Origin: an uncultured Anaeromusa sp.
GTDB taxonomy: Bacteria; Bacillota; Negativicutes; Anaeromusales; Anaeromusaceae
Assembly (NCBI RefSeq): GCF_963668665.1
Contig: NZ_OY764902.1
Coordinates: 248,001 to 312,000 of the forward strand
DNA: 64,000 bases
Direction of reading: 5' to 3'
Numbering within the stretch: position 1 is the first letter of the stretch; every line of letters starts with the position of its first letter. The notes beneath the pieces were generated by a model. It did no database searches and was not told the DNA's origin. It saw nothing but the letters and a program-made list of their open reading frames with translations. Below are positions 17,450 through 61,413 of this stretch, in pieces. The translations under genes and the position numbers were made by a program.

Positions 17450-17526
17450 CGGGGCGTAGCTCAGCTTGGTAGAGCGCTACCTTGGGGTGGTAGAGGTCGC
17501 ACGTTCAAGTCGTGTCGCTCCGACCA
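17450..17526 (+). tRNA. tRNA-Pro(GGG)
   Basis: 77 bases including an encoded CCA end. Acceptor CGGGGCG pairs with CGCTCCG (one G-U). D arm GCTCAGCTTGGTAGAGC, anticodon stem CTACC/GGTAG around the seven-base loop TTGGGGT with anticodon GGG, T arm GCACG-TTCAAGT-CGTGT. Single gene with its own promoter and terminator. Confidence 0.97.
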
Positions 17527-17545
17527 TTCTTACCCCAACAAAAAC

Positions 17546-17579
17546 AAGGCTTACAGCGATGTGAGCCTTATTTTTTTTT
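17546..17579 (+). terminator. Terminator of tRNA-Pro and insertion site of the intron
   Basis: 10-bp stem 17546-17555 / 17560-17569 with one G-U pair, GCGA loop and a T9 tract (17571-17579). The group II intron begins one base later, the placement preferred by group IIC introns. Confidence 0.9.
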
Positions 17580-17580
17580 G

Positions 17581-19485
17581 GTTTGCCCGGCATGGGCAGT
17601 AACTAGGCGGTGAAAGTCCGCTATGGGCTTGGTAGTGGGAACCATTAGCTGAACAGCAAGGGTGTCCATCGTGAGGTGGAATCTGAAGGAAGCTGAAAGC
17701 AAAGTCCTGCACCGACGAACAGAAACCGCATATAAGGCAAGTGTGGAGCGGACGAGTTTGCCAGACAAAACGAAGTCCAACACTACCCGAACTCCATGGT
17801 GTAGATGCGGCGGTGACATGGGATGAAAGTTACTGTTCTTAACCGGGGAGGTCTTGCAAGGCTTCGAAAGACATTGGCAACCCCATGACACCCGAAGAAC
17901 CCATGCAGTGATGTATGGCTCAATTGCAAGAAGTCAGCAGAGGTCATAGTACCGAAAGTTTTTTTTTTTCGGGAAGGACCGAACAATAACAGCTCTTTTG
18001 AGCGAGAAGAAGGTGAGGCAATGCGAAGAGAGCAGAAAACGACTAAGGTCGGCTGCCGCTGCGAGGGTATGTTGGAAACAGAGAGTAACAGCGGAGTGCA
18101 GAGTATTGCCACACTGGAAACCGCAGAGAAAGACGGTGCAGAAGACCTGCTTGAACAGATACTGCATAGAGATAACCTAAACGAAGCCTACAAGCGGGTA
18201 ATGAAAAACGGCGGAGCTCCTGGCATTGACGGCATGACGGTGGGCGAAATGCTGCCGTATCTGAAGGAACACAAAGAAGAACTTTTAAGGAGCCTGCGCG
18301 GAGGTTGGTATAAACCTAAACCGGTCAGACGGGTGCAAATTCCCAAACCAGATGGTGGGACGAGAAATCTCGGCGTACCCACCGTAATCGACCGAATGAT
18401 TCAACAGGCGATAGCGCAGGTATTGACACCAATATTTGAAGAGAAATTTAGCGACAGCAGCTACGGATTCAGACCAGGACGTAGTGCGCATCAGGCGATT
18501 AAGAAGACGGAAGAATACTACAAGCAAGGCTATGTGAAAGTAGTTGACATAGACCTCACGCAGTATTTTGACACGGTCAACCATGACATCCTAATCGAAC
18601 AAGTAAAGAAAGTCATACAAGACCGAGCCGTTATCAATTTGATACGCAAATTTCTCAAGAGTGGAGTCATGTTCAATGGGCTGGTTAGTGCGACGACGGA
18701 AGGAACGCCGCAAGGCGGGAACCTGTCGCCACTGCTGTCGAACCTCTATCTAACGGCGTTTGACCGAATGCTGGAAGAGCGCGGGCACAAATTTGTCCGT
18801 TATGCAGACGACTGCAACATATACGTCAAAAGCCAGCGAGCAGCCAAACGCGTGATGGCCGGTTGCAAAGATTATCTCGAAAAGAAACTGAAACTCAAGG
18901 TGAACGAAGCCAAAAGCAAAGCTGGAAGCCCGCTAAGACTAAAGTTTCTAGGTTTCTCTATGTACAAAGTAACCAAAAGCATAGGGATACGCCCTCATGC
19001 CAAAGCGATGAACAGGTTTAAAGGACGATTGAGGCAATTGACAAGCCGAAAGCAAGCTAATTCAGTTTCTGACATTCTAAGTAAGTTGAAACGGTATACG
19101 ACAGGCTGGCTTGGGTACTATTCGATAGCAGCCATGAGTTTCAAGATGAAAGAACTGAACGAATGGCTGCGAAGAAGAATCCGGCAAATCTTCTGGAAGC
19201 AATGGAAGAAGCCGTCTGCCAGATATGAAAACCTAAAACGTCTTGGCATCGACAAGTCGAAAGCAAGGGAGTGGGCAAATTCCCGACGAGGCTATTGGCG
19301 AGTTGCCAGGAGCTGGATTTTAAGCAGGTCATTAACAAACGAATACCTCGTATCGAGTGGTTATGATGACATAGCCGAACGATACGAGGTACTGCACTCA
19401 AGTTATTGAACCGCCGTATACCGAACGGTACGTACGGTGGTGTGAGAGGTCGGCTGTTCAATTAATGGGCAGCCTCCTACTCGAT
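17581..19485 (+). mobile_element. Group IIC intron with its own maturase
   Basis: Starts with GTTTGCCCGG at 17581 and continues with a structured domain I rich in group II features. The reverse transcriptase ORF follows at 18021-19409. Domain V is directly after the stop codon at 19410-19441: lower stem ACCGCCGTA/TACGGTGGT, two-base bulge CG, upper stem TACC/GGTA. Domain VI extends to about 19485 (TACTCGAT). The catalytic triad reads CGC, the form seen in class IIC rather than AGC. Insertion right after an intrinsic terminator and the lack of an endonuclease domain in the ORF agree with IIC. The exact ends are inferred to within a few bases. The ORF is intact, so the element may be active. 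Confidence 0.85.
18021..19409 (+). CDS. ltrA: Group II intron reverse transcriptase/maturase
   Basis: 462 residues. RT domain: VRRVQIPKPDGGTRNLGVPT, YGFRPGRSAHQAI, the catalytic aspartate in VVDIDLTQYFDTVNHD, EGTPQGGNLSPLLSNLYL, and RYADDCNIYVKS with the YADD box. Thumb/domain X follows (TGWLGYYSIAAMSF, RRRIRQIFWKQWKKP, NSRRGYWRVARSWILSR). No HNH endonuclease after domain X, as in class C enzymes related to the Geobacillus IIC maturase. It splices the intron RNA and copies it into DNA at new sites. An N-terminal extension of about 45 residues precedes the usual start of the RT0 region. RBS AAGGTGAGG ahead of ATG 18021. Confidence 0.95.
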   Translation: MRREQKTTKVGCRCEGMLETESNSGVQSIATLETAEKDGAEDLLEQILHRDNLNEAYKRVMKNGGAPGIDGMTVGEMLPYLKEHKEELLRSLRGGWYKPKPVRRVQIPKPDGGTRNLGVPTVIDRMIQQAIAQVLTPIFEEKFSDSSYGFRPGRSAHQAIKKTEEYYKQGYVKVVDIDLTQYFDTVNHDILIEQVKKVIQDRAVINLIRKFLKSGVMFNGLVSATTEGTPQGGNLSPLLSNLYLTAFDRMLEERGHKFVRYADDCNIYVKSQRAAKRVMAGCKDYLEKKLKLKVNEAKSKAGSPLRLKFLGFSMYKVTKSIGIRPHAKAMNRFKGRLRQLTSRKQANSVSDILSKLKRYTTGWLGYYSIAAMSFKMKELNEWLRRRIRQIFWKQWKKPSARYENLKRLGIDKSKAREWANSRRGYWRVARSWILSRSLTNEYLVSSGYDDIAERYEVLHSSY

Positions 19486-44666: not shown

Positions 44667-44690
44667 GAAAACGAAAACCAACAAAAAAGA

Positions 44691-44736
44691 AATAAGAAGG
44701 ACCGTATCACGAAGATGCGGTCCTTCTTATTTTGAC
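44691..44736 (+). terminator. Terminator after the small Cys protein
   Basis: 19-position stem AAATAAGAAGGACCG-ATC (44691-44709) / GAT-CGGTCCTTCTTATTT (44715-44733), five-base loop, T4. Confidence 0.88.
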
Positions 44737-51901: not shown

Positions 51902-52489
51902 ATGCGCAGCAGAAAAACGACGGAAATACGCCGTGAGGAAATCTTGCGAGCGGCGCTGTTTATTGTGGAACAGCAGGGCTTAGATAATTTGAATACCAAT
52001 GCGATTGCCGCGGTGATTCAATTGGTGCCGTCTGCCATTTACCGGCATTTTAAAAATAAAGAAGAAATTATTGCGGCTCTTATTGACTTTATTGGTGAGC
52101 GTCTGCAGCAAAATTTGCAGCAAGCGACAACTCAGGAAGGGACGGCGCTGGAACGTTTAAAAAGTCTCTTTGAACTTCATGTGAAATTGCTGCAAGAAGA
52201 GCCGGCGATTCCACGTATTCTTTATTTCTTAATTAGCAGTGAGCGCAATCAGGAATTGAAAAAAAAGATGCTCGCTGAAATTGACGCCTATGTATATGAA
52301 ACGAAAAAACTGCTGCTCCAAGGGAAGAAAGCCGGCGAAATCAATCCTGCGGTGGATGTTGCGGCAGCGGCCATGATGTTTTTAGGCATGATCCAGCCGC
52401 TAGTCATTCTCAGCCAAGAGAATAAGGACGTATTAGATGAATACCCGCAAAAACTGTGGCAGTGTTATCAACGCGCGATTGCTTTCTAG
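51902..52489 (+). CDS. TetR-family repressor of the exporter operon
   Basis: 195 residues. N-terminal HTH (RREEILRAALFIVEQQGLDN, TNAIAAVIQLVPSAIYRHFK) and an all-helical ligand domain. RBS GGGAGAG before ATG 51902. It is the last gene of the exporter operon and the natural owner of the palindrome at 46808-46827, a CecR-like arrangement. The ligand is unknown. Confidence 0.92.
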   Translation: MRSRKTTEIRREEILRAALFIVEQQGLDNLNTNAIAAVIQLVPSAIYRHFKNKEEIIAALIDFIGERLQQNLQQATTQEGTALERLKSLFELHVKLLQEEPAIPRILYFLISSERNQELKKKMLAEIDAYVYETKKLLLQGKKAGEINPAVDVAAAAMMFLGMIQPLVILSQENKDVLDEYPQKLWQCYQRAIAF

Positions 52490-52551
52490 AAAGAGCGAAA
52501 AGCCAAGCTGAGGAAAAAGAGTAACTATATTGAAACAAATATGGTTTTTTA

Positions 52552-52578
52552 GCAGGGGATTCATGCCCAGCGGCGAAT
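52552..52578 (+). promoter_or_regulatory. Sigma-H-like promoter of the HMA/dehydrogenase unit
   Basis: GCAGGGGATT (AGGG 52554-52557), 17 bases, GAAT (52575-52578). The -35 core has G for the last A of AGGA. Start expected near 52585. Confidence 0.45.
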
Positions 52579-52589
52579 AAAAATAATAA

Positions 52590-52690
52590 GCAATACTTCT
52601 ACGAAAGAAGTGTAATACACATGAATGTGTAACAGCCAGTGTTGTTTCCTTCCGCTTGTGGCAGGAAACTGATTGGCTGTTGTTTTTTTA
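52590..52690 (+). ncRNA. Conserved two-hairpin leader with terminator, copy 1
   Basis: Hairpin 1 ACTTCT-ACGAA-AGAAGT (52595-52611), then GTAAT, hairpin 2 ACACA-TGAA-TGTGT (52617-52630), AACAGC (52631-52636), then a terminator: AACAGCCA (52631-52638) / TGGCTGTT (52674-52681), inner stem GTTTCCT/AGGAAAC, T7. The same order, with compensatory changes in hairpin 1, is found at 55269-55357. It lies 43 bases after the -35 start in both copies. I do not recognise it as a known riboswitch. Confidence 0.65.
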
Positions 52691-52732
52691 CTTTCTTAGC
52701 TTAGAGGCTTTTGCGAAGGGAAGGGTAATGTT

Positions 52733-52993
52733 ATGTGTAAATCCTGCGGTTGCTTTTCGCTGGGTACAAGCCAGCTGAAGCTGCTGATTAAAGACTTGGA
52801 TGCGCAGCAGGCGCAAGAAGTGGAGACGTTCTTGGGCGGAATTCCCGGGATAAAACACGTTCATATTCACGCAGACAATGGCAAAGCGACAATACATTAC
52901 GTAACAAAGCAGTTGTCTCAAGATACGATCATTCAGTTACTCAAGGACTATCATCCCCAAAAAGCAAAAACGTTTCTTGGAAAATGGTGGTAA
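52733..52993 (+). CDS. Heavy-metal-associated (HMA-like) small protein
   Basis: 86 residues. N-terminal MCKSCGCFSLG carries three Cys (C-x2-C-x-C), followed by a ferredoxin-like beta-alpha-beta fold typical of HMA proteins (LKLLIKDLDAQQAQEVETFL, IPGIKHVHIHADNGKATIHY). The usual MxCxxC loop is not in its normal place; the Cys cluster is shifted to the extreme N-terminus. It may carry a metal ion or act as a sensor. First gene after the leader with terminator, 65 bases before the dehydrogenase. Confidence 0.75.
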   Translation: MCKSCGCFSLGTSQLKLLIKDLDAQQAQEVETFLGGIPGIKHVHIHADNGKATIHYVTKQLSQDTIIQLLKDYHPQKAKTFLGKWW

Positions 52994-53057
52994 AAAACTG
53001 GGCGGAATGGAATCGCCTACTATAAAAGAAAAGCACTAAAAAGAGGAGCGATGGATT

Positions 53058-54020
53058 ATGAATTTCCCTAAACGTAAGTTGGCTATTGTCGGGGTAGGAC
53101 ATGTTGGTTCGGCGGTGTTGAATTGCGCCTTGGCGTTTAATTTGGCGGCGGATATTGCTTTGATTGATATTCTTGAAGAAAAGGCAATGGGAGAGGCGTT
53201 AGACGCCAGCCACGGCACGCCGTATACCTTTAGCCCCAGCGCCTACGTGCACGCAGGGGGCTACGAAGAATGCAAGGATGCGGATGTGATTATTGTTGCC
53301 GCCGGTCCAAGTATTCTTCCGGGCGCTAATTTGGATCGCCTGCTGTTGGCGGAGAGCAATGTAAAAACCATTCATGACGTGATGAACTCCATTACGAAGT
53401 ACACAAAAGACGCCATTATCATTATGATTACAAATCCTTTAGATATTACTACGTATTGCGCGCAAAATCTCTTTGGCTATCCTAAACATAAGATTTTAGG
53501 GACCGGGACAACCTTGGAGACCGCGCGGCTGCGCAGGATTTTGGGCAATAAATACAACGTCGATCCCAAGAACGTACATGGTTATATTCTCGGCGAGCAT
53601 GGAAACTCCGCCTTCCCGGCTTGGAGCCTGGTGAGCGTGGCTGGTATTGCAGCTGACAAGCTAGATTCGTATTTCCAGCCGGAAGAACCCTTGGATTATG
53701 AAAAAACGGGTGCAGCGGTGGTCAATGTCGCCTATGACGTACTGAACTACAAGGGCTGCACCAACTCTGGCATTGCCATGGTAGCCTGTCGAATTGCCAG
53801 AGCGGTATTTTATAATGAAAACAGCATTTTCCCGGTATCAACGACCTTAAGCGGAGAATATGGCTTGGCCGGCATTGCCTTGAGTCTGCCTTGCGTCGTG
53901 AATTCCGAGGGGGTTCGGCAGCGTTTGGAAGTGCCGTTGAACGAAACGGAAATTGGCAAGCTGAAAGCTAGCTTTGAAAACTTGGGACAAGTGTTAAAAT
54001 CGGTGGGCGTTAAAAAATAA
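53058..54020 (+). CDS. Lactate/malate dehydrogenase family, 2-hydroxyacid dehydrogenase-like
   Basis: 320 residues. NAD-binding VGVGHVGSAVLN, ITNPLDITTYCAQ, catalytic loop GTGTTLETARLRRILG and the active-site GEHGNSAFPAWS. The substrate loop reads LPGANLDRLLLAE, so position 102 is neither Gln (lactate) nor Arg (malate). The LDR arrangement recalls L-2-hydroxyisocaproate dehydrogenases (GDRFAEL). I infer an L-2-hydroxyacid dehydrogenase for branched or longer 2-oxoacids, which suits an amino-acid fermenter. Confidence 0.85.
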   Translation: MNFPKRKLAIVGVGHVGSAVLNCALAFNLAADIALIDILEEKAMGEALDASHGTPYTFSPSAYVHAGGYEECKDADVIIVAAGPSILPGANLDRLLLAESNVKTIHDVMNSITKYTKDAIIIMITNPLDITTYCAQNLFGYPKHKILGTGTTLETARLRRILGNKYNVDPKNVHGYILGEHGNSAFPAWSLVSVAGIAADKLDSYFQPEEPLDYEKTGAAVVNVAYDVLNYKGCTNSGIAMVACRIARAVFYNENSIFPVSTTLSGEYGLAGIALSLPCVVNSEGVRQRLEVPLNETEIGKLKASFENLGQVLKSVGVKK

Positions 54021-54046
54021 GAATCAAAATTAAGGAGGCGGAACTA

Positions 54047-55132
54047 ATGACTATGGCAGTAGAACAAGTAAGCTTTCCCCAGAATGTTTTTCGCGGACGC
54101 GGGGCGTTGCCGCAGATTGGCGCATATTGCAAAGAACTAGGTGGGCCGGTCTTTGTTTTGGGCGGCAAAACAGCGCTTGGGAAAACCCAGGCCATCTTGG
54201 AAGCCAGCTTGCAGGAAGCAGGGGTCAAAATTGCGGCGGTGGAATGGTATGGCGGCGAATGTACACAGGACAACATTGACCGTTTGGCGGCTGGCGTGCG
54301 CCAGCATGGCGCGAAGGTTATTATTGCCGTGGGCGGCGGCAAGGCGCTCGATACCGGCAAGCTGACCGGTGATGCTTGCGGCGTTCCGGTAGTAACGGTG
54401 CCGACCATTGCGGCTACCTGTGCGGCGGCTACGCCGGTAGCGGTGCTGTACGACAATGACGGTATCTTTATCCGCATCGTATCCTTTCCTAATTGTCCGG
54501 TAGGCATGATCATTGACACCGATATTTTGCTGGCAGCGCCAGCAGAGTATTTGTCTGCAGGCTTAGGAGATACCCTGGCCAAATGGTACGAATACCGCGC
54601 CGCGATTCAGTGCGTGGAGCAGAATAGTTTAAGTCTGGCTGCCTTGGCTCAGGGCCGGTTGTGTTATGACTTGGTGGCTCGTTTCGGCGGCGAAGCCCAA
54701 AATGCGGCAGCGACCAAAGAATATGCTGCAGCGCTGGAAGCTACGGCGGATGCTATTATTCTTTATGCGGGGATGGCCTCGATTTATGGCGGAGAAAAGC
54801 TGCGTTCGGCAGCGGCTCATGCTTTATACAACGCCTTTACGATTATTCCGGAAGCCCATGAAATGGGGCATGGCCGGACCGTGGGCTATGGAAATCTTTG
54901 CTTATTGGCGTTGGAAGGCCGGGCGGACGAAGAACTTCTGGAAGCCGTTGAAATTGCTAAAGCTTGCGGCGTGCCCGTGACTAGCCAGCAAATTGCTAAA
55001 ACCACAGCGGCTCAACTGGAAGCTGTTGCAGCCAAAGCGGTATCGCTGCCGGATATGAAAAACATGCCGTTGACAGTAACGACGGAAAAAATGCTCCAGG
55101 CGATTGCGCGCGTAGACGCATTAAGCTCATAA
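54047..55132 (+). CDS. GldA-family iron/zinc-containing dehydrogenase
   Basis: 361 residues. AVGGGKALDTGKL (NAD-binding), PTIAATCAAATPVAV, metal ligands Asp in SAGLGDTLAKWYE, His in AAHALYNAF and His in EMGHGRTVGYG. It belongs to the glycerol dehydrogenase/iron-containing alcohol dehydrogenase family. RBS AAGGAGGCGG before ATG 54047. Cotranscribed with the 2-hydroxyacid dehydrogenase. The substrate may be glycerol or a hydroxy compound; it cannot be read from sequence. Confidence 0.88.
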   Translation: MTMAVEQVSFPQNVFRGRGALPQIGAYCKELGGPVFVLGGKTALGKTQAILEASLQEAGVKIAAVEWYGGECTQDNIDRLAAGVRQHGAKVIIAVGGGKALDTGKLTGDACGVPVVTVPTIAATCAAATPVAVLYDNDGIFIRIVSFPNCPVGMIIDTDILLAAPAEYLSAGLGDTLAKWYEYRAAIQCVEQNSLSLAALAQGRLCYDLVARFGGEAQNAAATKEYAAALEATADAIILYAGMASIYGGEKLRSAAAHALYNAFTIIPEAHEMGHGRTVGYGNLCLLALEGRADEELLEAVEIAKACGVPVTSQQIAKTTAAQLEAVAAKAVSLPDMKNMPLTVTTEKMLQAIARVDALSS

Positions 55133-55150
55133 CGCAAAATTCATTACAGG

Positions 55151-55185
55151 AGTCAGGCAGAGTGATCTGCCTGATTCTTGCTTTT
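55151..55185 (+). terminator. Terminator after the GldA-family gene
   Basis: 9-11 bp stem around TCAGGCAGA (55153-55161) / TCTGCCTGA (55166-55174), four-base loop, then TTCTTGCTTTT. Confidence 0.8.
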
Positions 55186-55225
55186 GGGCGTTAATCCATT
55201 GCGGAGAAAGAAAATAACTGCCTAG

Positions 55226-55252
55226 GCAGGGAATTTGTTAAAAACGAAGAAT
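55226..55252 (+). promoter_or_regulatory. Sigma-H-like promoter of the ABC importer
   Basis: GCAGGGAATT (AGGG 55228-55231), 17 bases, GAAT (55249-55252). Same AGGG variant as at 52552. Start expected near 55259. Confidence 0.5.
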
Positions 55253-55263
55253 AGATATACACA

Positions 55264-55357
55264 AGAAAGCTTTCACGAAGAAAGCGTAATACACACGAAT
55301 GTGTAACAGCTGCAAATTCGTCTGCGAGCCGCAGGCGTAGTTGGGCTGTTGTTTTTT
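55264..55357 (+). ncRNA. Conserved two-hairpin leader with terminator, copy 2
   Basis: Hairpin 1 GCTTTC-ACGAA-GAAAGC (55269-55285), GTAAT, hairpin 2 ACACA-CGAA-TGTGT (55291-55304), AACAGC (55305-55310), then terminator stem AACAGC / GCTGTT (55345-55350) with an inner CTGC/GCAG helix and T6. Stem 1 differs from copy 1 at five of six pairs, yet pairs perfectly, while the loops are kept. Confidence 0.65.
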
Positions 55358-55387
55358 ATGCAAAGAGAAGAAAGGTTGTTGTGGAAG

Positions 55388-56950
55388 ATGAAGAAAAAGA
55401 CAGCTCTCTATCTTATGCTGTGCGGCATGGTAATGGCAGCATTACTGTTGACAGGGTGCGGCGGGAAAAAAGAAGCGAAGACCCCGGCGGATGCGATTGT
55501 CTTGGGGGTTGAGAATGAGTCTGCCAAGGTAAATCCGCTCTTTACAGACGAGCATGATGATGCGGTAATGCTGATCTTTACCGGCTTGACTAGATATAAT
55601 GAAAAGAACGAACTGACGCCGGATTTAGCGGAATCCTGGCAGATAAGCGCCGATCAAAAGGAATACATATTCAAGCTGCGGCAAAACGTAAAATGGCATG
55701 ACGGCCAGCCGTTTACAGCGGAAGACGTTAAATTTACGATTGATACGGCGTTAGACAAAAAAAGCAATTCGACCATTCGCGAACGTTTTGAAGAAATTCA
55801 AGAGGTAAGCGTACTGGATCCCTATACGGTCAAGATTGTTTTAAAGACGCCTTTTCCTTTGCTGGACGCTATGACGACCGGCATGATTCCGAAACATGCC
55901 TTAGCGGGAAAAGACGTGAATCAAGACGCCTTTAACGCCCAGCCGATTGGCACCGGACCTTTCCGTCTGAGCCAATGGCAAAAAGGACAAGCGATGACGC
56001 TGGAAGCCAATAAGGATTTTTATCGGGGCGCTCCGAAAGTGGCGAAAGTGATCTTGAAGTTCCTGCCGGATCAGAACGTCCGGGCCTTGCAGTTGGAAAC
56101 CGGAGAAATTGATGTAGCTCTTGTCGATCCGGCTCAAGTGGAGCGGGTGCAAAAAGTGCAGAGCCTCCAGGTGGAACGAGTAGTAACGGCGGATTATCGC
56201 TGCTTGATGTATAATCGCCAATTTCCCTTATGGAATGATGCGCGTGTACGCCAGGCGTTGAATTTTGCCGTAGACCGGGAGGCGCTGGTAAAAGGCGTGA
56301 TGCTTGGCTGGGGCAAAGCGGCTTATGGACCGCTGCAGCTCAATTGGGCCAATAACAGTGCCGTAGAAACATACGCCTATAATCCGGCGAAGGCGAAAGA
56401 ACTGCTGGCGGCGGCAGGCTATACGCCGGGCGCGGACGGGATGCTGCAAAAAGACGGGAAGAAGCTGACCTTTAAAATTACTACCTTTGCCCATGACCCG
56501 GTGCGGGTTTCCTTAGCGAACGCCTTGTCTACGCAGTTTAAACAAATTGGCGTAGACGCTGTGCCGGATCCGCGAGAAAAGGGGTCCTTTAAAATCGCAG
56601 ACATGGAAACATTTTTGTTGGGCTGGGGCAGTCCCTTTGATCCGGATCAAGATACGTACCGGATCTTCCATGGCAGCGACCCCAGCGGCCAAAACTATGA
56701 ACACTATAAAAACGCTAAGGTAGATGCGGCTTTGACAGCGGCGCGGCAAACAATGAATCAAGAAGCGCGCAAAGGATTGTACGCTCAGTTCCAGCAAGCG
56801 TTGGCAGAGGATCCGCCGTTTAATTTCTTGGTTTACTTGGATGTTGCCGTAGTGCATAATAAAAGCATCGGCGGCTTTAAGGCAAGGACGTTGGGCCATC
56901 ATGGCGCCGGTTATACTTGGAATGTGGAAGAATGGAGCAAGACTCCCTGA
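55388..56950 (+). CDS. ABC importer substrate-binding lipoprotein (nickel/peptide type)
   Basis: 520 residues from ATG 55388. Lipoprotein signal with lipobox LLTGCGG. SBP family 5 fold: FTGLTRYNEKNELTPDLAESW, VKWHDGQPFTAEDVKFT, IGTGPFRLSQW and GEIDVALVDPAQV. The end AVVHNKSIGGFKARTLGHHG resembles nickel-binding NikA-type members, and the length is that of NikA (about 520). The set of five genes with these lengths fits NikABCDE better than Opp; peptide transport is not excluded. First gene behind the leader, 255 bases after GldA. Confidence 0.85.
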   Translation: MKKKTALYLMLCGMVMAALLLTGCGGKKEAKTPADAIVLGVENESAKVNPLFTDEHDDAVMLIFTGLTRYNEKNELTPDLAESWQISADQKEYIFKLRQNVKWHDGQPFTAEDVKFTIDTALDKKSNSTIRERFEEIQEVSVLDPYTVKIVLKTPFPLLDAMTTGMIPKHALAGKDVNQDAFNAQPIGTGPFRLSQWQKGQAMTLEANKDFYRGAPKVAKVILKFLPDQNVRALQLETGEIDVALVDPAQVERVQKVQSLQVERVVTADYRCLMYNRQFPLWNDARVRQALNFAVDREALVKGVMLGWGKAAYGPLQLNWANNSAVETYAYNPAKAKELLAAAGYTPGADGMLQKDGKKLTFKITTFAHDPVRVSLANALSTQFKQIGVDAVPDPREKGSFKIADMETFLLGWGSPFDPDQDTYRIFHGSDPSGQNYEHYKNAKVDAALTAARQTMNQEARKGLYAQFQQALAEDPPFNFLVYLDVAVVHNKSIGGFKARTLGHHGAGYTWNVEEWSKTP

Positions 56951-57939
56951 TGTTGCTGTTTATTTTGCGGAGGCTGCTGGCTAGTGTGCCGGTGCTGCTG
57001 GTTGTCAGCCTCTGCTCCTTTTTCTTTATTCATACGGCTCATGGAGATCCGGCGGTGGCCATGTACGGCAGCCAGTTGGAGCGGATGCGCCCGGCGGACC
57101 AGGAGCGCATTCGTGAAAACTTGGGGCTGGATCAACCATTGCCTGTACAGTATGGACGCTGGCTGTCACAGGCTATGCAAGGCGAATTGGGAACTTCATA
57201 TATTACCGGTCGCCCGGTATCGCAAATGCTGGCGGAGAGACTACCGCGCACCATTGTGTTGAATGTGAGCGCGTTGGCGCTGATGGTCTGCCTGGCGGTT
57301 GCTGTGGGCTTGGCTAGCGCCATTCGGCAATATTCGTGGCTTGATTATCTGGCGACGTTTTTTTCGTTTCTCTTTTTTTCCATTCCTAGCTTTTGGCTGG
57401 CGTTGTTAGCGATTTTGTTTTTTAGCGTCTATTTAGGCTGGCTGCCATCCGCTGGCATGGCTTCTTTAGGGAATGATGGAGATTGGCTCGACCGGCTGCG
57501 GCATTTGCTGCTGCCGGTCGTTGTGCTGGCGTTAAGTCATGTGGGCGCTTATATTCGCTTTGTGCGGTCCAGCATGCTGGAAGTGCTGGGCAAGGAATAT
57601 ATTCGTATGGCCCATGCCAAAGGCTTATCGCCGCGAAGAGTGCATTATCTGCATGCCTTTCGCAATGCCTTGGTGCCTGTTATTACTTATGGCGGGTTAT
57701 CTTTTTCTTCTCTTGTCGGGGGCGGTTATCTGGTGGAGACGGTATTTGCTTATCCAGGATTGGGACAATTAAGCATTCAAGCCGCCTCCATGCGCGATTA
57801 TCCGCTGTTGATGGGAACGATATTGCTAACAGGCTGCTTTGTCGTCGCCGGAAACTTGCTGGCGGATATTGCCTGCGCTTGGGTAGATCCCAGACTGACG
57901 GTGGAAGGGCTGCGAAAGAAGGTGGGCGGCATTGGGTAA
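56950..57939 (+). CDS. ABC importer permease, NikB/DppB type
   Basis: 329 residues from ATG 56950, which overlaps the SBP stop (TGATG); an upstream in-frame ATG at 56932 is possible. N-terminal helix (FILRRLLASVPVLLVVSLCS), the conserved LDQPLPVQYGRWL, then five helices and the EAA loop (HAKGLSPRRVHYLHAFRNAL). Inner membrane permease of a nickel/dipeptide system. Confidence 0.92.
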   Translation: MLLFILRRLLASVPVLLVVSLCSFFFIHTAHGDPAVAMYGSQLERMRPADQERIRENLGLDQPLPVQYGRWLSQAMQGELGTSYITGRPVSQMLAERLPRTIVLNVSALALMVCLAVAVGLASAIRQYSWLDYLATFFSFLFFSIPSFWLALLAILFFSVYLGWLPSAGMASLGNDGDWLDRLRHLLLPVVVLALSHVGAYIRFVRSSMLEVLGKEYIRMAHAKGLSPRRVHYLHAFRNALVPVITYGGLSFSSLVGGGYLVETVFAYPGLGQLSIQAASMRDYPLLMGTILLTGCFVVAGNLLADIACAWVDPRLTVEGLRKKVGGIG

Positions 57940-58801
57940 CAAGGCTTTTTGGAAACGTCTGGTGCGCCACCGTTTGGGGCAGGGCGGTTTAATCGTCTTG
58001 GCGATTATGCTCTTACTGGCTGCTGCGGCGCCGCTTCTGGCGGCGTATAGCCCGATAGACGCCGACTTAGCAGCCGTGCGGCAGCCTCCTAACGGTATGC
58101 ATCTATTTGGTACGGATGAATTGGGACGTGATATTTTCAGCCGCCTGTTGTATGGAGCGAGGGTGTCCCTGGCGGTGGGCATTGCTTCGGTGGCTCTTGC
58201 GACTACCCTAGGGCTTCTGTACGGCGTGGTCAGCGGCTATACAGGGGGCTTGGCGGATAACGCGCTGATGCGCTTGTTGGATGGCTTGCTTTCGGTGCCT
58301 ACGCTGGTGCTGGTTATTGCCTTGCAGGCGCTGAGCGGTCAAGGCTTTCAAAGTGTTATTGGGGTAATTGCGGCTACCAGTTGGATGCAGACCGCCCGTA
58401 TTGTGCGGACCGAGTTTTTAGCTGTGAAACAGCAGCCCTTTGTGCAGGCGGCGCTTACATGCGGCGCAAGCGACGGAACGGTGATTTGGCGGCATATCTT
58501 GCCGAATTGTTTGCCTTCGGTTGTCGTGTTGGCGACGATGAGCGTGGGCCATGCGATTGTAACGGAAGCGGCTCTCAGCTTTCTGGGCATGGGGATTCCG
58601 CCGCACCTTCCTTCATGGGGGAATATGCTGATGGGCGGGCAGCGGAGCATTTTAGCGGGCGCCTGGTGGATTGCTTTTTTCCCGGGCTGCTTTATTGTCT
58701 TGACCGTATTAGCCATTAACTTCTTGGGAGATGCGGTGCGAGACGCTCTTGACCCGTTGGGAGGCAAAGGAAATTTCGGAGCAAAAGGAGAGGCGTCATG
58801 A
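57932..58801 (+). CDS. ABC importer permease, NikC/DppC type
   Basis: 289 residues from TTG 57932 (RBS AAGAAGGTGGG), overlapping the preceding permease by eight bases. N-terminal helix (GLIVLAIMLLLAAAAPLLAA), the motif HLFGTDELGRDIFSRLLYGAR that is diagnostic of the DppC/NikC class, and the EAA loop (TCGASDGTVIWRHILPNCL). Heterodimer partner of the NikB-type permease. Confidence 0.93.
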   Translation: MGNKAFWKRLVRHRLGQGGLIVLAIMLLLAAAAPLLAAYSPIDADLAAVRQPPNGMHLFGTDELGRDIFSRLLYGARVSLAVGIASVALATTLGLLYGVVSGYTGGLADNALMRLLDGLLSVPTLVLVIALQALSGQGFQSVIGVIAATSWMQTARIVRTEFLAVKQQPFVQAALTCGASDGTVIWRHILPNCLPSVVVLATMSVGHAIVTEAALSFLGMGIPPHLPSWGNMLMGGQRSILAGAWWIAFFPGCFIVLTVLAINFLGDAVRDALDPLGGKGNFGAKGEAS

Positions 58802-59616
58802 AGGAGTCTTGTTTGTCCTTGCGCCATGTGTCGGTTTCTATTGATGGCGCGCCTTTAGTTCGGGATGTGACCTTTGATGTGCCTGCCGGTGAAGTCTTGG
58901 GTTTGGTAGGAGAAAGCGGCAGTGGCAAGTCGTTGACGCTGCAGGCGGTGATGGGACTGGCCGGTATGGGGCGCAACAATGTGCAGGTTCAAGGGGAAGC
59001 CTGGTTTCAAGGAAAAAACCTATGCGCCTTGAAGCCGGAGGAGCTGCGCGCGCTGCGCGGTGCGGCGATCGGCATGGTCTTCCAAGATCCCCTGGCGTCG
59101 CTGAATCCGGTATTGCCTGTAGGCTGGCAAGTAGCGGAGCTTTTTCGGGTGCATCGGAAGCTGTCGCGTCGAGAGGCTGGAGTCGGGGCGAGACAAGCCC
59201 TGCTTCGTGCGGGTGTTACAAAGCCGGAAGAGCTGTACTATCGCTTTCCGCACCAATTGTCAGGCGGTCAGCGGCAGAGAGTGCTGATTGCTATGGCTGT
59301 GGCGCTGGAGCCTCCTTTGATCATCGCAGATGAGCCGACTACCGCCTTGGATGTGACCTTGCAAGCGCAGATTATCGAAGAATTGCGCCGCTTGCAGCAA
59401 GAGGGAGGAAGCTCGGTGCTTTTGGTCTCTCATGATATGGGCGTGATTGCAGAGCTGGCGGATCAGGTGGCGGTCATGCGCGAGGGGCGTGTGGTAGAAC
59501 AGGGAAGCTGCATGGAAATTTTTGATGCGCCTCAGGAGGCCTATACGCAGCGCTTGTTGGCAGCCAGTCGCTTCGAATTGATAGAGGAGGCGGCGCATGA
59601 GTCTGCTTGTAGTTGA
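58798..59616 (+). CDS. ABC importer ATPase, NikD/DppD type
   Basis: 272 residues. Walker A GESGSGKSLTL, Q-loop MVFQDPLASLNP, signature LSGGQRQRVLIAMA, Walker B IIADEPTTALDVT, H-loop LLVSHDMG. The short C-terminus lacks the long Cys-containing oligopeptide extension of OppD, and the length is like NikD (about 255). Start overlaps the previous permease by four bases. Confidence 0.94.
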   Translation: MKESCLSLRHVSVSIDGAPLVRDVTFDVPAGEVLGLVGESGSGKSLTLQAVMGLAGMGRNNVQVQGEAWFQGKNLCALKPEELRALRGAAIGMVFQDPLASLNPVLPVGWQVAELFRVHRKLSRREAGVGARQALLRAGVTKPEELYYRFPHQLSGGQRQRVLIAMAVALEPPLIIADEPTTALDVTLQAQIIEELRRLQQEGGSSVLLVSHDMGVIAELADQVAVMREGRVVEQGSCMEIFDAPQEAYTQRLLAASRFELIEEAAHESACS

Positions 59617-60406
59617 AAACGCTTGTTGCCGTTATCGGTTGCATTCGCATTGGCTGGCCGGACACAAAGAAGTAAAGGCCGTAGAAAAGGTATCCTTGCA
59701 GATTGCCGAAGGAGAGCGCTTTGCGTTAGCTGGAGAAAGCGGCAGCGGGAAGAGTACGCTGGCGAGAGCGATCTTGTTATTGGAGCCATTGGCATCAGGA
59801 AAAATTCTTTTTGATGGTGCGGATATTTCCGCACTAAAGGGGAATGCGCAAAAAAATTATCGCCGCCAAGTGCAGATGGTGTTTCAAGACGCTTATTCTT
59901 CCATGAATCCCCGTATGCAAGTAGGCGAAATTCTAGCGGAACCGGTACGCTCTTTTGCTCTAAAAGAAAATGAAGCTCGCGCAAAGAAGCGGATCAGCAG
60001 TATGCTGGAATGCTGCGGTTTATCCGCTAAAGTTCTGGCGCGGTATCCGGGAGAACTTTCCGGCGGGGAGTGCCAGCGAGTTGCCTTGGCTAGGGCTCTT
60101 TTGCCGCAGCCAAGGCTGGTTGTTTTTGATGAGGCTACGTCGAGTTTGGATGTGACGCTGCAGAATCAGATTCTTGGCTTGCTGCATCAAGTGCGGCAGC
60201 AGATGAATTTGACCTATCTTTTCATTACGCATAATCTAGCCATGCTGCCCCACGTCGCGGACCGCGTCGGCATTATGCAAGAAGGCAGGCTGGTAGAAGT
60301 CTTACCTGCGCATCAGTTAACGCAAGGAAAACATTCTTATACGCAAAAGCTGCTGGCGGCAGCCCCGGTGACACATCCGAAGGATCGAAGAGCCTTGTCA
60401 AAGTAA
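59597..60406 (+). CDS. ABC importer ATPase, NikE/DppF type
   Basis: 269 residues. Walker A GESGSGKSTLA, Q-loop MVFQDAYSSMNP, signature LSGGECQRVALARAL, Walker B VVFDEATSSLDVT, H-loop FITHNLA. Overlaps its partner by 20 bases. Length equals NikE (about 268). Last gene of the importer unit. Confidence 0.94.
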   Translation: MSLLVVENACCRYRLHSHWLAGHKEVKAVEKVSLQIAEGERFALAGESGSGKSTLARAILLLEPLASGKILFDGADISALKGNAQKNYRRQVQMVFQDAYSSMNPRMQVGEILAEPVRSFALKENEARAKKRISSMLECCGLSAKVLARYPGELSGGECQRVALARALLPQPRLVVFDEATSSLDVTLQNQILGLLHQVRQQMNLTYLFITHNLAMLPHVADRVGIMQEGRLVEVLPAHQLTQGKHSYTQKLLAAAPVTHPKDRRALSK

Positions 60407-61179: not shown

Positions 61180-61352
61180 ACCGCATAAAGAGGGTTTAGG
61201 TGCCCGTGAGGGCTTAATAGGGAAGTCCGGTGTAATACCGGCGCGGTCCCGCCACTGTAATGGGAGAGTTGCTTCAAAAGATACCACTGGAAGAATGGTT
61301 CCGGGAAGGTTTGAAGCCGCGATGATCCAGAGCCAGGAGAACTGCCTAACCA
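61180..61352 (+). promoter_or_regulatory. Cobalamin (AdoCbl) riboswitch aptamer
   Basis: Contains the conserved series GGTGCCCGTGAGGGCTTAAT, GGGAAGTCCGGTGTAATACC, GCGCGGTCCCGCCACTGTAA (the B12 box neighbourhood) and GAGCCAGGAGAACTGCCT. The order and spacing match the AdoCbl class. It precedes methylmalonyl-CoA mutase, an AdoCbl enzyme, which is logical but less usual than control of transport or synthesis genes. Confidence 0.95.
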
Positions 61353-61413
61353 ACAATCACCGCTATACCTGCGAGCGACAGGAAGGGGATTTCGTGAGAC
61401 GATTTTACATAGT

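Follow-up and report, generated by a model that had tools for sequence, protein, structure and literature searches.

A 64,000-nt stretch of DNA from an uncultured Anaeromusa sp. (contig NZ_OY764902.1, positions 248,001 to 312,000; hereafter the window) carries two neighboring gene units, one with genes for a lactate dehydrogenase (ldh) and a glycerol-dehydrogenase-like protein (gldA) and the other for a peptide/nickel-type importer, and each unit is headed by nearly the same 44-nt leader element, at 52593-52636 (copy 1, ldh unit) and 55267-55310 (copy 2, importer unit). The element consists of a hairpin P1 (6 bp, loop AYGAA), a linker GNAA, a second hairpin P2, and lastly ACAGC, which forms the foot of a predicted terminator; both copies have the whole series in the same order, from promoter-like boxes through P1, GNAA, P2, ACAGC and terminator to a U tract (Table 1). 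The loop sequence is carried by both hairpins, as AYGAA in P1 and AYGAAU in P2. The terminator foot AACAGC/GCTGTT is identical in the two copies, while the upper stem is not. An earlier note, made from the letters of this DNA, had proposed a duplicated two-hairpin leader ending in a terminator; both copies are confirmed, with minimum-energy folds as described there and a predicted terminator and U tract in each. Its second hairpin, given as ACACA-YGAA-TGTGT, is likewise present in both copies, although the stem is longer than that, with 6 bp (UACACA/UGUGUA, loop YGAA).

Written as a joint pattern (a hairpin with AYGAA loop, then a hairpin with AYGAAT), the element has two matches on the + strand of the window and none on the − strand; the mean was 0.0 in 200 first-order Markov sequences of 64 kb, for a pattern that was composed post hoc. 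The P2 palindrome taken alone, with two mismatches allowed, occurs twice in the window against 1.19 expected, an absence of enrichment that weighs against the observation. A 20-bp hairpin with loop ACGAA at 44689-44733, 3' of a large gene, has no second element hairpin behind it and is probably an ordinary terminator.

The order is represented in our set by four genomes, all of one genus: the window genome (G000), another of the same species (G117), and two congeners (G001 and G002). The covariance-model search for homologues that the earlier note had called for found the element pair in all four, with P1 covarying and the same genes downstream. There are exactly two copies per genome at E < 0.05, preceding ldh-gldA and the importer; in the window genome a small HMA-like gene is interposed. 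The model (R2) was built from six of the eight elements, including both window copies and leaving out both copies of G117. In its own genome it found the window copies at E 9.0e-17 and 9.7e-16, the next-best match being at E 3.96, and the G117 copies, unused in model building although the importer one is identical to its G000 counterpart within the element, scored E 8.3e-17 and 3.2e-16; a third, weak match occurs in G001 (E 0.098). Within a genome the two elements are 82–86% identical in ungapped comparison, the 44 nt upstream 25–57%, and the 44 nt downstream 16–27%.

Table 1. Positions of leader and gene features of the two units in the window
Feature	Position	Strand	Basis or remark
Copy 1 −35-like box, AGGGGATT	52554..52561	+	Sigma-H-like pattern, 8/8 leaders
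Copy 1 −10-like box, GAATA	52575..52579	+	Sequence pattern
Copy 1 P1, loop ACGAA	52595..52611	+	Fold, covariation
Copy 1 P2, loop UGAA	52616..52631	+	Fold
Copy 1 predicted terminator	52631..52689	+	Foot AACAGCC (first A shared with P2) pairs GGCTGTT at 52675-52681
Copy 1 U tract	52683-52689	+	Sequence, 3' end of predicted terminator
Weakly HMA-like small protein, 86 aa	52733..52993	+	Between leader and ldh, window genome
ldh, L-lactate dehydrogenase family	53058..54020	+	NCBIfam L-LDH-NAD above cut-off
gldA-like, glycerol-dehydrogenase-like, iron-containing alcohol dehydrogenase family	54047..55132	+	Below NCBIfam cut-offs; closest solved chains are glycerol dehydrogenases
Hairpin 3' of gldA, 9 bp	55153..55174	+	Absent from simple terminator scan listing
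Copy 2 −35-like box, AGGGAATT	55228..55235	+	Sequence pattern
Copy 2 −10-like box, GAATA	55249..55253	+	Sequence pattern
Copy 2 P1, loop ACGAA	55269..55285	+	Fold, covariation
Copy 2 P2, loop CGAA	55290..55305	+	Fold
Copy 2 predicted terminator	55305..55357	+	Foot AACAGC (first A shared with P2) pairs GCTGTT
Copy 2 U tract	55352-55357	+	Sequence, 3' end of predicted terminator
Family 5 solute-binding protein, peptide/nickel-type importer	55388..56950	+	Closest solved chains 8efz, 4oet
Two permeases and two ATPases, same importer	56953..60406	+	Profile matches

The eight elements comprise seven distinct sequences (the importer copies, opp, of G117 and G000 are the same within the element), and in these all 84 of 84 pair cells are paired. 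Compensatory covariation, which the earlier note had read from P1 of the window copies, holds over this larger set, with both-sided change at four of the six pairs; the wording 'nearly every pair' was too strong, as three of six differ between the window copies. The P1 covariation score was reached by none of 500 shuffles, and all slid controls scored lower; the count of both-sided pairs was reached by 10 of 500 and that of further pair types by 325 of 500, and these controls somewhat overstate the case because related sequences were compared and two of them had supplied the structure.

The P1 changes bear on whether the site acts as RNA at all. P2 is a perfect, invariant palindrome, and a TetR-family gene lies just upstream of the units, so that P2, as TACACA-N4-TGTGTA, could be an operator bound in the DNA by a dimeric repressor, with the RNA pairing incidental. 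However, the P1 pairs change on both sides while the loop stays AYGAA, P2 keeps its asymmetric center YGAA, element and terminator foot adjoin in all eight leaders, and no third site with up to two mismatches occurs in the window, which also takes in the beginning of the operon whose last gene is the TetR gene. We consider a DNA operator highly improbable, and an operator of the TetR gene in particular was rejected.

Outside the genus we found no convincing copy in 376 other genomes of the class or 397 other sampled genomes of the phylum, with the proviso that stricter filters applied to scans over 40 genomes, by which distant relatives may be missed. In the class scan, 29 of 380 genomes matched at E ≤ 0.05: four are this genus (E ≤ 1e-15), and the other 25 are weak (E 0.003–0.048), where 19 would be expected from the E-values. 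Weak loci were read by eye with no formal test (nine of the 25 plus six from the first model, R1, of which L006 is also one of the 25) and either lack a hairpin or the loops or look coding-like; the nearest, L020 (ACACA...TGTGTATACAGC), has a first hairpin without the AYGAA loop and is unconvincing, if still conceivable as a copy. The phylum sample, which partly overlaps the class scan, gave one match among 398 genomes at E ≤ 0.001, the window's own genome, and viral contigs gave 0 matches. A scan of genome contigs with the pattern returned one record with two matches, taken as G117, and no fifth genome, in a scan that was incomplete in that G000, G001 and G002 were not returned. An unfiltered model search of 15 loci, a subset, around homologues of gldA and the importer found no element (best E 0.45). 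Comparison with 4227 Rfam families yielded no element match above the gathering threshold and none convincing at E up to 10, in agreement with the earlier note, which had recognized no described riboswitch class.

An importer homologue in genome G043 (68% identity) has a different upstream sequence. That region (L087, 6900-7080) has at its end what looks by eye like a terminator-like hairpin, with no Rfam match, and a fluoride riboswitch lies at 2531-2593 of L087 (Rfam, 41.9 bits), away from the importer.

The folds of the window leaders are stable for their composition: minimum-energy z-scores are −5.3 and −3.5, and 0 of 200 shuffles fold equally well. P1, P2 and the terminator form together in the predicted folds of all eight leaders, with five extra pairs joining the 5' end to the U tract in the ldh leader of G000. 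The terminator may reach two bases into the 3' arm of P2 in each leader, which is the maximum overlap. When the terminator 3' arm was removed in folding, no partner of the AACAGC arm was common to the eight leaders: the arm is mostly unpaired in four of them, pairs with the stem that follows it in the G000 and G117 opp copies, and contributes two bases to a pairing with the linker in the G001 and G002 ldh copies. Thus, judged by sequence alone, the default would be OFF, with no shared internal switch, and switching would require a partner. The earlier note had proposed that the fold of hairpin 2 could decide termination; these folds make it unlikely that hairpin 2 does so by itself, and mutual exclusion of P2 and terminator was rejected as the sole switch, since both form together in all eight leaders and overlap by at most two bases.

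One kind of partner would be a small molecule or ion, with the two hairpins as a compact aptamer whose binding blocks or favors the terminator. The element is small and structured with conserved loops, it adjoins a terminator that could serve as expression platform, and transport and metabolic genes lie downstream; on the other hand, no alternative fold is common to the eight leaders, the element is confined to one genus, and the 4-nt linker would probably be too short to bridge a pair of collinear stems in the manner of guanidine-II, if we may extend that architecture to this case. A riboswitch therefore seems to us unlikely. A metal riboswitch led by the HMA-like gene, a version suggested by the earlier note's metal signal, was rejected, as that gene was not found in the three relatives: the stretches searched between leader and ldh in G001, G002 and G117 gave no match, and ldh is there the first gene behind copy 1. 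The protein itself is without a Pfam match at E 0.001, and its NCBIfam matches all lie far below the cut-offs; its one database relative differs at 2 residues. The peptide/nickel family of the importer leaves nickel as a conceivable signal, and the metal idea overall is weak.

Upstream of P1, all eight leaders have boxes of the form AGG[GT]RATT-N13-GAAT with constant spacing (a pattern written after seeing the sequences), which we take to be similar to the Bacillus sigma-H consensus. A related pattern, GCAGGNATT-N9-16-GAATA, is present at 11 places in the window genome, whereas its reversed control gives 0, which suggests that promoters of this type are used there; a sigma-70 scan of 52450-55450 gave no promoter at either leader. 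The equal promoter distance pointed out in the earlier note is exact for the window, with 43 bases from the −35-like GCAGG (52552 and 55226) to P1 in both copies, but the distance varies over 7 bases across the eight leaders.

A short RNA would result from the promoter-like boxes, the two stable hairpins and the terminator, all of which lie within ~140 nt. Perhaps, then, the leaders are two paralogous short RNAs or 5' stabilizers, acting by 5' protection or in trans, with the genes read by leaky termination; the ANTAR decoy RNA EutX (PMC8934654) would be a precedent. In all four genomes, however, both copies occupy the same positions ahead of genes, and no further copy was found in the own-genome search, which makes this reading rather unlikely in our estimation.

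We tentatively favor the explanation that the element is a 5'-leader antitermination site common to the ldh-gldA and importer units, and likely bound by a protein. Transcription would start immediately upstream of P1 and, with the two hairpins and the terminator formed in the default state, would mostly stop. A protein, either a dimer or a tandem binder, would recognize the two near-identical loops together with the invariant joint between P2 and ACAGC; once bound, it may hold ACAGC off the GCUGU of the terminator foot, and RNA polymerase would read into the genes. AYGAA in both hairpins is what is expected of a repeated binding site, and the repeated loop, the invariant joint, and the kept terminator foot are together most readily accounted for by a protein holding on to the loops and shielding ACAGC.

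Several points weigh against this explanation. P2 is invariant at all six pairs and thus gives no covariation support for its pairing, and all element sequences come from one genus. Neither leader terminator appears among the hits of a simple terminator scan covering 52450-55450, the ldh leaders of three genomes (G001, G002 and G117) have a break in the U tract, and both the start and the termination of transcription are predictions from the sequence. The overlap of P2 with the terminator, two bases or fewer, is below that published for ANTAR targets, and a block would therefore need to be mainly steric. No binding protein was identified for the leader element.

Four known leader systems invite comparison. 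(i) ANTAR targets are described (PMC3369931, PMC8934654) as two-hairpin antiterminators with hexaloops that have A at position 1 and G at position 4. The ANTAR leaders (eut, nasF, amiE) resemble ours in that an intrinsic terminator in the 5' leader is immediately preceded by tandem small hairpins with similar loops, and two tandem hairpins of at least 3 bp, the ANTAR criterion, are predicted in all eight leaders. The differences are that P1 has a pentaloop in 8/8 and P2 a loop of 4 nt (6 if the top A-U pair opens), that both loops have A1 and G3 in 8/8 instead of A1 and G4, that the linker is 4 nt against 5–12 in the E. faecalis eut leaders, and that P2 abuts the terminator, with two bases or fewer in common. 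(ii) Guanidine-II (mini-ykkC) RNAs also have two stem-loops, with ACGR tetraloops and a spacer of at least 13 nt in the great majority and of 14 nt for 49 A (PMC5486947). ACGA can be found within most element loops; however, these are an AYGAA pentaloop in P1 and YGAA in P2, with U allowed for C, the linker is 4 nt in 8/8, the mini-ykkC model of Rfam has no match up to E 10, and no guanidine-type genes were recognized downstream of the element. Membership was rejected on loop and linker. With loops that break the rules of both ANTAR targets and guanidine-II, the element is filed in neither. (iii) GlpP leaders come to mind, with GlpP as a candidate partner, because GlpP-family proteins are encoded in all four genomes (over the cut-off) and a glycerol-dehydrogenase-like gene lies downstream of the element, but the R2 search to E 10 found no element at the glpK-glpP locus of the window genome, in a comparison that did not extend to the published GlpP target. 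The window genome has a second GlpP-family gene (L111, 5288-5980), beside open reading frames resembling iron-type ABC transporters and not beside glp genes. (iv) The BglG/LicT system shares protein-dependent antitermination at a leader hairpin. Its RAT site has the shape of one asymmetric hairpin, unlike the two short perfect hairpins of the element, and a CAT_RBD protein was found in 0/4 genomes at E 0.001 (controls positive in 4/14); a RAT of this type was rejected.

The ANTAR system could supply a resident partner, if the element were a divergent target of the genus's single ANTAR response regulator. Each of the four genomes of the genus has one ANTAR match, the regulator of the window genome adjoins an open reading frame that reads by eye like a sensor kinase, and two tandem hairpins do stand right before the terminator. 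At the EutV contact positions Y164/R168/N173/R177 this regulator has F/Q/A/S, and Rv1626 has F/Q/D/T (alignments read by eye), so that the former looks like ordinary variation. Against such a target speak the loops, with 5 nt in P1 and G at position 3 in place of 4, and the occurrence of the regulator also in G043 (one match in each of the five genomes tested), which gave 0 matches with R1. We regard it as quite unlikely.

Terminator-linked leaders are common, and what is described here is a lineage-restricted, terminator-linked two-hairpin leader of known kind with a new sequence code: it falls outside every Rfam family tested, and its loops depart from the rules for the two known kinds nearest to it. 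The element makes a compact, testable candidate gene switch, having two copies per genome, the same loop in two hairpins and an invariant terminator joint, and these properties make a partner search tractable. A more specific form of the antitermination proposal, which we consider doubtful, is that paired AYGAA hairpins and the P2-ACAGC joint constitute a new antiterminator loop code, read by an RNA-binding family not yet linked to antitermination and serving a two-unit regulon in a single order. If the partner is truly a new RNA-binding antiterminator, the element would exemplify a second two-hairpin recognition code beside that of ANTAR; should the resident ANTAR regulator prove to be the partner, the A1-G4 rule would have to be broadened.

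As to the genes behind the leaders, the two units encode seven proteins besides the HMA-like one, and these are 93–99% identical between the window and G001 or G002. The hairpin 3' of gldA is possibly the end of the first unit; taken with the promoter-like boxes of copy 2, it suggests that the units are transcribed separately. Homologues of gldA elsewhere in the class (49–59% identity) have no match to this ldh within ~1.5 kb on either side. The importer proteins all fall below the NCBIfam cut-offs shown; of the chains closest to the solute-binding protein, 4oet is presumably the Campylobacter nickel-binding protein NikZ. Elsewhere in the window, Rfam models detect a tRNA followed by group II intron pieces at 17450-19485, and a cobalamin riboswitch at 61181-61363 (111.6 bits), which precedes a gene that we take to be methylmalonyl-CoA-mutase-like.

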